Shown here: piece after piece, positions 6,963-40,725 of the stretch | Layout: each line of letters begins with the position of its first letter | Position numbering within the stretch: the first letter of the stretch is position 1 | Source of the DNA: Oceanobacillus sp. FSL K6-2867 | Lineage (GTDB): Bacteria > Bacillota > Bacilli > Bacillales > Amphibacillaceae | Reading direction: 5' to 3' | Assembly (NCBI RefSeq): GCF_037963145.1 | Contig: NZ_CP150144.1 | Span: 930,001 to 994,000 of the forward strand | Length of the DNA stretch: 64,000 nt | Notes under the pieces: generated by a model | What the model was told of the DNA's origin: nothing | Databases searched by the model: none | What the model saw: only the letters and a program-made list of their open reading frames with translations | Made by a program: the position numbers and the translations under genes

Positions 6963-6987
6963 AAAAATGAATGAAACACCGAATCGG

Positions 6988-7070
6988 AAGAGGTTCATAG
7001 CTGAAACCCTCTATAAAAAACTATGGATACATTGACGATTAGCCATGTCCATATTGGATGTGGCTTTTTT
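6988..7070 (+). ncRNA. preQ1-I riboswitch, copy 1, with terminator
   Basis: The aptamer has stem AGAGG (6989-6993) / CCTCT (7008-7012), the loop TTCATAGCTGAAAC and the A-rich 3' tail TATAAAAAACTA that forms the preQ1-binding pseudoknot. The expression platform is a perfect 11-bp terminator, AGCCATGTCCA / TGGATGTGGCT (7041-7065), followed by T6. ATGGATACA (7023-7031) can pair with TGTCCAT (7046-7052) as an antiterminator. Binding of the queuosine precursor should therefore stop transcription. What follows is only a 7-codon frame, then a second riboswitch. Confidence 0.92.
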
Positions 7071-18712: not shown

Positions 18713-23473
<4,761 letters not shown>

Positions 23474-38919: not shown

Positions 38920-39807
38920 ATGAATTTTTTAATTACTGGTGGCACAGGCTTTGTCGGGAAGCATCTTTGTCTAGCATTACAAAGAAAAGGACATCATACG
39001 TACATACTTACAAGATCTCCTCTCCAGCACAGGAACAATCAAGCCGCTACTTTCATACATTATAATTATCCGGCAGAAAAACTGCCGCTTATTGAAGGTG
39101 TCATCAATCTAGCAGGAGAGACACTGTTTGGTTACTGGTCCCAAAAGAAAAAGGATAAAATCAAAAGCAGCAGATTAGAAACGACAAATACATTAATACA
39201 ATTTATGAAACAGATGAAAGTAAAACCGAATGTATTCATAAGCGGCTCTGCAGTTGGTTATTATGGCATGTCTGAAGATATAATTTTCACTGAAGCTACT
39301 ACTGCTTCTGGTAAAGATTTTTTAGCTGAAGTAGTTATGGAATGGGAGCAAGCTGCTAAACAAGCGGAATCTCTTGGCATCCGTACAGTCTTCACCAGAT
39401 TTGGCGTGATTCTTGGTGAAGAGGGATCGCTGCCATTAATGAGTCTTCCAGTAAAATTATTTGCTGGAGGTACAATTGGGAATGGCGAACAATGGATATC
39501 ATGGATTCATATTGAAGATGTAGTTCGATTAATCGATTATTGCCTTTTTAATAAGCAAATAGAAGGAGCAGTCAATACTACAGCGCCTTCCCCATTACGA
39601 AACAAAGATTTCATGCAGACTTTGGCAAAGGTTTTAATGCGACCAAATCTGATCACAGCCCCTTCCCCACTTATATATGCTGCAATCGGAGAAATGGGGC
39701 AATTAATCACGAAAGGACAGTATGTTTTGCCGCAAAAGGCTCTCAATCATGGGTTCAAATTTAAGCATCCAGAGCTAGCAAAAGCATTGGAAAACCTCAT
39801 GGAATAA
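38920..39807 (+). CDS. yfhF: NAD-dependent epimerase (YfhF/TIGR01777 type)
   Basis: 295 residues from ATG 38920: AGGAGG is 6 nt upstream and an earlier ATG touches the site. Rossmann motif ITGGTGFVGKHL at residues 5-16; YYGM for the catalytic Tyr region; and the family's LRTVFTRFGVILG and WISWIHIEDV blocks. Extended SDR, substrate unknown; plant/cyanobacterial relatives act in cell division. Same neighbour (recX) as in B. subtilis. Confidence 0.9.
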   Translation: MNFLITGGTGFVGKHLCLALQRKGHHTYILTRSPLQHRNNQAATFIHYNYPAEKLPLIEGVINLAGETLFGYWSQKKKDKIKSSRLETTNTLIQFMKQMKVKPNVFISGSAVGYYGMSEDIIFTEATTASGKDFLAEVVMEWEQAAKQAESLGIRTVFTRFGVILGEEGSLPLMSLPVKLFAGGTIGNGEQWISWIHIEDVVRLIDYCLFNKQIEGAVNTTAPSPLRNKDFMQTLAKVLMRPNLITAPSPLIYAAIGEMGQLITKGQYVLPQKALNHGFKFKHPELAKALENLME

Positions 39808-39996
39808 TCGTTAATTTTTCTGAACAAACTTTTAACAAAAAAAGTATTTGCTTTTTAAGAAAAAGGATGTAAAATAACCTTATCAAATTGAGTTAAAAAA
39901 AGGCAAAGGGACCTGGATTGGCTTATGCCACTATGTTCTGCAGCCTTTATTAAAATATGAAAGAGATGAATAAAATCGTAACACAACACTGAATTA
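39808..39996. other. intergenic stretch after yfhF
   Basis: One frame, 39880-39981 (...GTWIGLCHYVLQPLLKYERDE, stop), reads as plausible protein but has no start codon or ribosome site, so it may be a gene stump. AAAGGC/GCCTTT and TGGC/GCCA give it some hairpin potential. No clear terminator for yfhF is visible. Confidence 0.35.
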
Positions 39997-39998
39997 AA

Positions 39999-40163
39999 TA
40001 GGGAAGGCAAATGGTGCGCCACCAGCTTTGACTGGTTCTAGTGGGTTCGATTCCCACCCCGAATTTTTGTTGAACGCGAAAATAAAAATTCGAGGGTGGG
40101 TCACTTACTGGATTTCCTTTTGGAAGGTCAGCGAGTATACCCACCTGGAATGAGGAGGGTATT
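39999..40163 (+). ncRNA. candidate structured leader RNA of the GNAT gene
   Basis: Directly upstream of the GNAT ribosome site. Visible stems: ACCAG/CTGGT (40021-40025/40032-40036); a T-arm look-alike GTGGG-TTCGATT-CCCAC (40041-40057); a long 16-bp hairpin CCCACCCCGAATTTTT with AAAAATTCG-A-GGGTGGG (40053-40068/40084-40100); and GGTGGGT/ACCCACC (40095-40101/40139-40145) enclosing an ACT-CTG-TTCC/GGAA-CAG-AGT arm. The last three compete for the same bases, as in regulatory leaders. No T-tract terminator follows. It matches no riboswitch I know. RNA status is inference. Confidence 0.5.
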
Positions 40164-40167
40164 TTTT

Positions 40168-40725
40168 ATGTTGAAAATACGTGATTTGCATGAAGTGCCA
40201 GTACTATTTGAATTGATGTCGCATCCAGATGTATTTCCCTATGTTAGACATAGAGCTGAAACAACCGATGAATTTTATTTCCTTACGAAGATGACAATCG
40301 AAGCTGAGGAAAATGGAGAGCTGATTTCACGTACCATTGTTGATGAGTATTTACAGCCTATCGGAACAATCAATTTATTTGATATTCAAGATAATCACGG
40401 CTTTTTAGCAACTTGGATCGGCCACCCCTACTTTGGCAAAGGATATAATAAACAAGCAAAGGAGCAATTCTTTGATTTGCTATTTTTCACATATAATATT
40501 GAAGGTATTTTTATGAAAGTAAGAAAAACAAATATCCGATCAATGAAGGCAGTTTTAAAACTTCCATACGTTGCTTTAGCCAATGAAATTTATTCCGATG
40601 TTTACAGCCAAATTAATCCTGAAGAGGATATATATGATTTATTCGTTATTACAAAAGACCATTATGTTTCTTATCAGCAGTTTAGAACCATGGATGCTGA
40701 ATCTACGGATGAAGAAGTTTCCTAA
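40168..40725 (+). CDS. GNAT-family N-acetyltransferase
   Basis: 185 residues from ATG 40168, 7-8 nt after GAGGAGGG. GNAT fold: acceptor half IRDLHEVPVLFELMSHPDVFPYV; acetyl-CoA loop near GHPYFGKGYNKQAKEQFF (the Q/RxxGxG/A-type turn); then the RKTNIRSMKAVLKLP segment common in RimJ/RimL-like enzymes. The target amine (protein, antibiotic or metabolite) is unknown. Its leader carries a candidate structured RNA. YfhE follows 54 bases downstream. Confidence 0.85.
   Translation: MLKIRDLHEVPVLFELMSHPDVFPYVRHRAETTDEFYFLTKMTIEAEENGELISRTIVDEYLQPIGTINLFDIQDNHGFLATWIGHPYFGKGYNKQAKEQFFDLLFFTYNIEGIFMKVRKTNIRSMKAVLKLPYVALANEIYSDVYSQINPEEDIYDLFVITKDHYVSYQQFRTMDAESTDEEVS

Follow-up and report, generated by a model that had tools for sequence, protein, structure and literature searches.

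T-box leaders are leader switches linked to tRNA. A leader that itself takes a tRNA-like shape is described for the yjdF riboswitch: according to the relevant passages of PMC9142559, this RNA lies in the 5′ leader and forms a tRNA-like cloverleaf with equivalents of the D-loop and T-loop, its T-arm sequence competes for the Shine-Dalgarno sequence (SD), and it acts as a translational ON switch stabilised by ligands, with acetyltransferase genes among those it controls. The same passages report that tRNAs placed upstream of the SD raised in-vitro translation 2- to 6.3-fold, and that the tRNA shape of yjdF aids ribosome recruitment. In the passages of the crystal-structure paper (PMC10987639), other stems are described, with a T-loop-like fold in P2b. 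Also relevant are tRNA-Other of Bacillus cereus, given in passages of PMC3399842 as a pseudo-tRNA with a Trp anticodon that flanks a genomic island, tRNA-Other-like transcripts being confined there to the B. cereus group, and Gd4v, a Guanidine-IV riboswitch variant presented in passages of PMC9788692 as a candidate riboswitch controlling GNAT enzymes.

The locus described here lies in a 64,000-nt stretch of Oceanobacillus sp. FSL K6-2867 (NZ_CP150144.1 of assembly GCF_037963145.1, positions 930,001–994,000, forward strand), hereafter the window. The 165 bases at 39999–40163 are the leader of a gene for a 185-residue GNAT acetyltransferase, and they carry a tRNA-like RNA that is matched by no Rfam 15 family at the locus and is found in most sampled genomes of the order. 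The features, in window coordinates and all on the forward strand, are as follows.

39847–39875, forward: possible sigma-A promoter, TTTGCT-17-TAAAAT with a weak −35, picked out by eye.
40001–40060, forward: tRNA-like domain (RNAalifold on 48 relatives, pair counts, 117.5 bits with our model R1).
40001–40003 with 40058–40060, forward: acceptor of the domain, 3 bp.
40004–40005, forward: linker AA between acceptor and D-arm.
40006–40008 with 40018–40020, forward: D-arm, loop AAATGGTGC.
40021–40025 with 40032–40036, forward: anticodon-like arm.
40037–40040, forward: variable region TCTA.
40041–40045 with 40053–40057, forward: T-arm GTGGG-TTCGATT-CCCAC, loop TTCGATT (sequence and pair-by-pair check).
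40053–40060, forward: E1, CCCACCCC, the 3′ strand of T-arm and acceptor, with E2 as alternative partner (alternative helix with 94.3% of cells paired; tabulated E1 and E2 forms).
40061–40091, forward: P4 hairpin, directly 3′ of the acceptor 3′ strand (40061–40069 with 40083–40091).
40092–40100, forward: E2, GAGGGTGGG, containing GGGTGGG at 40094–40100; proposed to pair with E1 (OFF) or E3 (ON).
40138–40146, forward: E3, TACCCACCT, containing ACCCACC at 40139–40145; proposed to pair with E2 (ON) or the SD strand (OFF) (sequence, folds, E2:E3 count).
40153–40161, forward: E4, AGGAGGGTA, the SD, sequestered by E3 in the predicted OFF fold (free minimum-energy fold of the window leader).
40162–40167, forward: T6 run directly after the SD hairpin, a possible lineage-specific terminator tail (sequence).
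40168–40725, forward: GNAT acetyltransferase, 185 aa, PF13302 (Pfam 4.8e-11; AlphaFold mean pLDDT 91.8).

A preliminary description of this DNA, made from the letters alone, had singled out the T-arm form at 40041–40057, which is exact, and a 16-bp stem with one bulge made with GGGTGGG, with which the pair-by-pair check agrees: CGAATTTTT (40060–40068) pairs with AAAAATTCG (40084–40092) and is extended by 40053–40059 with 40094–40100, giving 16 pairs in total and a single bulged A at 40093. It had also placed ACCCACC at 40139–40145 and read three pairings as excluding one another, and this holds, since the T-arm, E1:E2 and E2:E3 pairings draw on common strands. The T-arm mimic that it described is present as one part of a cloverleaf that had been missed, together with a D-arm, an anticodon-like arm and an acceptor of 3 bp. 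Further downstream, TACCCACCT and AGGAGGGTA (40138–40146 with 40153–40161) form a hairpin of eight pairs and one mismatch that contains the SD.

The cloverleaf was recovered by RNAalifold, unguided, from 48 relatives, followed by a hairpin. The consensus has a D-stem of three pairs, a six-pair arm at the anticodon position, a variable region ending in TCTA and a T-stem of five pairs; in tRNA numbering, the acceptor corresponds to pairs 5–7/66–68, the linker AA to 8–9, the anticodon-like arm to 27–31/39–43 and the T-arm to 49–53/61–65. The alignment was collected by blastn and holds 48 of the 49 strong matches described below (L058 was omitted). In its 44 distinct rows, 98.2% of cells pair in cloverleaf and hairpin, the covariation score is 0.152 against 0.055 in shuffles, and compensatory changes, on which the preliminary description had staked its reading, are found: two-sided changes occur at 11 of the 26 pairs, against a shuffled mean of 3.9 and with none of 500 shuffles as high. 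P4 has double changes at six of its nine pairs, with 96.7% of cells paired. A larger set of 164 distinct bodies shows compensated changes at several pairs of the anticodon-like arm (pair 28–41 is AU in 140, GC in 13, GU in 7 and UA in 4), which encloses a loop of variable size, and at T-stem pair 51–63 (GC in 158, AU in 6). Covariation thus supports the anticodon-like arm, the T-arm and P4; the acceptor and D-stem pairs hardly vary and so rest on layout, covariation saying nothing for either.

The T-loop TTCGATT is invariant in all 48 rows gathered by blastn, and the linker is AA in all of them. The patterns used to select the 164 bodies, like those for a set of 210 leaders used below, prescribe most of the D-region and T-loop and, in the bodies, the linker bases, so that invariance there is partly due to selection; the 210 leaders were also required to have a GNAT-like start, and 23 of them come first from loci fetched by GNAT. 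A hairpin TGGTG/CACCA (40012–40024) competes with the D-arm and anticodon-like arm. It is paired in nearly all of the 164 bodies, in which it varies on the 3′ side only (the 5′ side being fixed by the selection pattern) and the anticodon-like arm shows double changes; it is present in the free fold of the window leader and is possibly part of the OFF state.

Model R1 (104 positions, built from 48 leaders including that of the window) scores the window leader at 117.5 bits (E 8.9e-28). Its six further hits in the 64 kb are led by three on the tRNA-Trp, tRNA-Gly and tRNA-Asp genes (26.7, 22.5 and 19.1 bits), the others being the antisense strand of the element (17.4 bits) and two within tRNA-Ser and tRNA-Asn. 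Two other RNAs were noted in the window: a PreQ1 riboswitch match at 6984–7030 on the forward strand (41.1 bits, cut-off 39) and a Bacillaceae-1 RNA between the 16S and 23S rRNA genes at 21817–21883 on the reverse strand (81.4 bits).

The distribution of the element ties it to one gene. With the leader as query, blastn finds strong matches (E below 1e-8) in 49 of the 58 genomes searched, its own among them, and only weak ones in the other nine; the strong matches span 19 of the 25 families sampled, with a core at about 39999–40100, and every one directly precedes an orthologous GNAT, the distance from T-arm to start codon being 72–143 bases. The element is single-copy in its own genome, in which the next blastn match has an E of 1.27. 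In a sample with genus names (at least 120 stretches, 80 among the matches listed), the matches listed come from Oceanobacillus, Virgibacillus, Priestia, Cytobacillus, Neobacillus, Niallia, Heyndrickxia, Halobacillus, Psychrobacillus, Parageobacillus and other genera, and a GNAT start was located in 73 of the 80 by script and in 6 by eye, the remaining stretch ending too early.

Searching 249 genomes of the order with R1 matched 216 at E 0.01 or better, of which 27 had best matches at the level of tRNAs (E 1.1e-4 or worse) and were set aside uninspected, leaving 189 strong ones (E 7.7e-13 or better). A GNAT profile matched 193 of the 249. RNA and GNAT occur together in 189 genomes, the RNA alone in none, GNAT alone in four and neither in 56; the conservation before homologous GNAT genes that the preliminary description called for is borne out, in that each of the 189 genomes strongly matched for the RNA also has the GNAT. 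At the level of single loci, 262 of the 264 fetched that bear the core run into the GNAT. Because 43 of these were fetched via GNAT searches, with the gene present by construction, the fair figure is 219 of 221, and some places, that of the window included, were fetched more than once. The two exceptions are L183, where the sequence ends, and L119 (1–2801 of G105:C23), where the GNAT has been lost and the next gene, by eye UPF0316/YebE-like, now adjoins the RNA; that genome still has two further RNA-GNAT copies. In another genome (G137; loci L073 and L296) the GNAT frame contains two stop codons, and the RNA in front of it continues to match strongly.

In a sample of the phylum, four of 299 genomes have a strong match, namely its own, two more of the order and one of another family of the class. 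GNAT orthologues of several other families of the class, and those of the four exceptions within the order, have no such RNA upstream, and R1 run unfiltered before the GNATs of RNA-less lineages (29 sources) gives strong hits only at L311 and L313, both of which are RNA carriers. Given orthologues without the RNA in other lineages, it seems that the RNA became attached, within one large lineage, to a GNAT gene that was already there. In one RNA-less family (f179; L314, L315, L321, L322, L330 and L332), a stretch containing GTTCRAAC and GCGGTC is, by eye, common to the GNAT leaders; R1 does not recognise it.

The GNAT itself is most similar, among proteins bearing a name, to Oceanobacillus GNATs. 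Among solved structures, a profile search places MccE (2.2e-7) closest to it; MccE is an acetyltransferase of processed microcin C, and this relationship makes aminoacyl-nucleotide-like substrates worth testing, no more. PADLOC returned no result for the GNAT. Gene neighbours differ between genomes, the commonest, by eye an upstream amidohydrolase, being found in 40 of 80 loci, so that the link to yfhE suggested in the preliminary description is a local one. Near the GNAT locus of one relative there is an FMN riboswitch (L042, 90–235, reverse strand, 116.2 bits).

So close a bond between an RNA and one gene is also seen in autoregulated leaders, and it is conceivable, if unlikely, that the GNAT, or a protein that binds tRNA elbows such as a tRNA-modifying enzyme, binds the mimic and sets expression. 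T-loops like TTCGATT are typical enzyme targets, and the invariance of this loop in the 48 blastn-collected rows fits such binding. The GNAT orthologues, however, are acidic (median pI 5.30, median K+R−D−E of −7 in 114 orthologues), unlike typical RNA binders, which speaks against the GNAT binding its own leader, and orthologues without the RNA exist.

We consider instead that the leader is probably a cis-regulatory ON switch for translation of the GNAT, with a tRNA-like sensor domain. In the alternative to the cloverleaf, E1:E2 plus P4, 94.3% of cells are paired, but inside E1:E2 only one pair is double-changed, in one sequence. E2 reads G-N-GGGTGG in 160 of the 196 leaders whose E1 is CCCACCCC and differs in nine of the ten whose E1 is CCTACCCC (T-arm GTAGG/CCTAC), and the platform of those nine therefore works differently or not at all. 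Five loci with T-arm GTAGG/CCTAC (L142, L155, L192, L216 and L313) have an E2 with CTAGG that may, by eye, pair with a variable region TCCTAG, and there the platform looks rebuilt. Three leaders have T-arm GCGGG/CCCGC: one has E2 GGGCGGG, the change being present on all three strands, and the other two retain GGGTGGG, still paired through G-U.

Downstream, the commonest form of E3 is CTGCCCTC (61 of 182 leaders), the SD in E4 being GGAGGG. In these 182, which are the leaders of the 210 with a loose G-N-GGG E2 and at least 10 bases from E2 to SD, E2 and E3 are complementary at seven or more of eight positions in 99.5%, against 65% when shuffled, and E3 and the SD at five or more of six positions in 89.6%, against 52.8%.

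In partition-function calculations on the 210 leaders, the SD is open to 0.54 on average when the cloverleaf is imposed and to 0.21 when the 5′ strand of the T-arm is kept from pairing; the enforced cloverleaf makes the SD more open in 152 leaders, less open in 3 and leaves it within 0.1 in 55. Across a sample of 80 leaders the opening rises by 0.321, and by more than 0.1 in 69% of them, compared with 0.032 for 240 shuffles of the platform, which exceed 0.1 in 30% and fall below −0.1 in 19%. In the unconstrained ensemble the T-arm forms with an average probability of 0.08, staying under 0.1 in 185 of the 210 leaders and passing 0.5 in 20, and the SD opening is 0.21, as closed as with the T-arm barred. 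The free ensemble thus favours OFF, and tertiary energy or an effector would have to pay about 5 kcal/mol on average relative to the barred state; the folding energies omit tertiary contacts and ligands, and the gap between ON and OFF is large even so. For the window leader, the free minimum-energy fold, which is the fold obtained with the OFF pairs enforced, has −64.4 kcal/mol against −57.1 kcal/mol for the enforced cloverleaf, a gap of about 7, and the SD opening rises little, from 0.20 to 0.28, as computed on a leader sequence three bases too long. The tests run support the switch-like reading of the preliminary description, the switch itself being put forward as a model, and in having a conserved, structured leader before a gene, with predicted folds that exclude one another, the RNA answers to the general description of a riboswitch.

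A static role, in which the cloverleaf does not switch and instead guards the 5′ end or brings in ribosomes, is distinctly unlikely. It can draw on the 2- to 6.3-fold effect of upstream tRNAs on in-vitro translation (passages of PMC9142559) but leaves unexplained both the retention of G-N-GGGTGG as E2 in 160 of the 196 leaders with E1 CCCACCCC and the complementarity of E2:E3 and E3:SD above that of shuffles.

Termination is a further way in which an ON switch might act. The preliminary description found no terminator run; the TTTTTT at 40162–40167 that directly follows the SD hairpin corrects this. A T-run of at least five between SD and start is present in 68 of 210 distinct leaders, so a hairpin with a U-run is not found throughout the family, and termination cannot be the common mechanism, though certain lineages might use it. 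The SD hairpin with its T-run is absent from the output of the terminator scan. Upstream, the stretch around the possible promoter is conserved in some near relatives (blastn); the promoter scan did not list 39847–39875, and promoter position over 208 leaders shows no sharp peak.

The element invites comparison with tRNA (RF00005) itself. It shares the four-arm layout, a D-loop with GG, a five-base variable region and a T-arm with TTCGATT, and the cloverleaf, the D-loop GG and a T-loop of the form TTCRANY make it tRNA-like on secondary structure and sequence. It differs in an acceptor of 3 bp rather than 7, in having neither a fixed 7-base anticodon loop nor CCA, in its place in an mRNA leader and at the position of U8, which is universal in tRNA and is an invariant A here. 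Neither the tRNA gene finder ARAGORN nor Rfam calls a tRNA at the window locus. Among relatives, ARAGORN does so in 4 of 50 loci, the Rfam tRNA model exceeds its cut-off in 1 of 35 (L135, 30.1 bits), and the tRNA-Sec model touches 2 of 16 in the second batch of loci searched, far under cut-off. Such rare calls indicate an element that is tRNA-like and usually too altered to be called a tRNA, and the leaders that a tRNA finder labels as tRNA genes call for caution. They are also what speaks for a processed tRNA-like small RNA, or a processing signal for RNase P/Z, that precedes the GNAT by chance; the short acceptor, the missing CCA, the variable anticodon-like loop and conserved elements that continue to the SD make this very improbable. 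The chance of a decayed tRNA or repeat, akin to the worn tRNA fused to a repeat that the preliminary description offered, or of an attachment-site scar or mobile element, is practically negligible, for although the T-arm is near-identical to real tRNAs across about 17 bases (blastn), a single-copy element is not a repeat, constraint with strong matches in 19 of 25 families excludes decay, covariation extends over the order, the phage collection has no match to the element and the viral contigs none to the exact pattern, and the lone match in the plasmid collection, on a 690-kb Cytobacillus replicon, has a GNAT behind the RNA.

The ON switch would then work as follows; comparison shows that the cloverleaf is conserved, that the elements compete and that the RNA is closely tied to the GNAT, and the two states are what we infer. 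Once the cloverleaf has formed, with its D-loop locked to its T-loop, E1 (CCCACCCC) would be held in the T-arm and acceptor, leaving E2 (GAGGGTGG) free to capture E3 and so to release the SD in E4. When the cloverleaf fails, E1 and E2 would join as a long P4, E3 and E4 would pair, and the ribosome site would be shut. A putative effector, for which a small molecule akin to the GNAT substrate is the likeliest candidate, would stabilise the tRNA-like fold; the tRNA shape itself may aid ribosome recruitment, as for yjdF, and in the lineages with a T-run, transcription read-through is perhaps also controlled. On balance, we lean towards a new class of riboswitch-like leader, in which a tRNA body has been co-opted by a single gene as an aptamer: a specific molecule or a tRNA-binding factor would be sensed by the elbow and by the four-way junction, in which the AA linker is invariant, and locking or unlocking of the tRNA fold would open the ribosome site of a dedicated GNAT over most of the order. 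It would be a uniform and strongly constrained case in which an mRNA control element has apparently been made from a tRNA fold and serves a single, fixed target gene, and the identity of the effector would hint at the substrate of a widespread, uncharacterised GNAT.

Finally, how does this RNA stand among those already described? No Rfam 15 family matches at the leader locus at gathering cut-offs, in keeping with the preliminary view that it belongs to no known riboswitch class. With E up to 10, the region 39800–40400 gives nine matches, all far under cut-offs, one of which is a 17-base piece of tmRNA that falls on the T-arm (12.8 bits). Nothing among the literature matches listed resembles the element, an earlier mention being possible, and neither GNAT nor acetyltransferase appears in the main text of the bacterial RNA-discovery papers searched by term. 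Gd4v is a different RNA that controls several gene families (passages of PMC9788692). Like the leader, tRNA-Other is a tRNA-like element inside a larger RNA in bacilli, and the passages of PMC3399842 give it no link to a GNAT. The leader word AGGGTGG resembles the start of the T-box motif, as had been remarked in the preliminary description, and, again as remarked, the rest does not follow: the word breaks off there, there is no Rfam T-box match at the locus, and membership was rejected; here the GNAT leader itself mimics tRNA. Closest in its working is yjdF, as it appears in the passages cited above, with a tRNA-like leader, competition by the T-arm and an ON switch. The linker, however, is AA rather than the extended, purine-rich J1/2 of yjdF; the T-arm strand pairs with E2 and does not compete for the SD directly, as that of yjdF does; and the RNA is tied to one GNAT family. 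The yjdF model matches neither window positions 39800–40400 (E up to 10) nor any of 35 related loci (E up to 1), and with a different linker, gene and competing strand, membership of that class was likewise rejected. If our reading is true, the GNAT leader would be a second natural switch built on a tRNA fold, besides yjdF.
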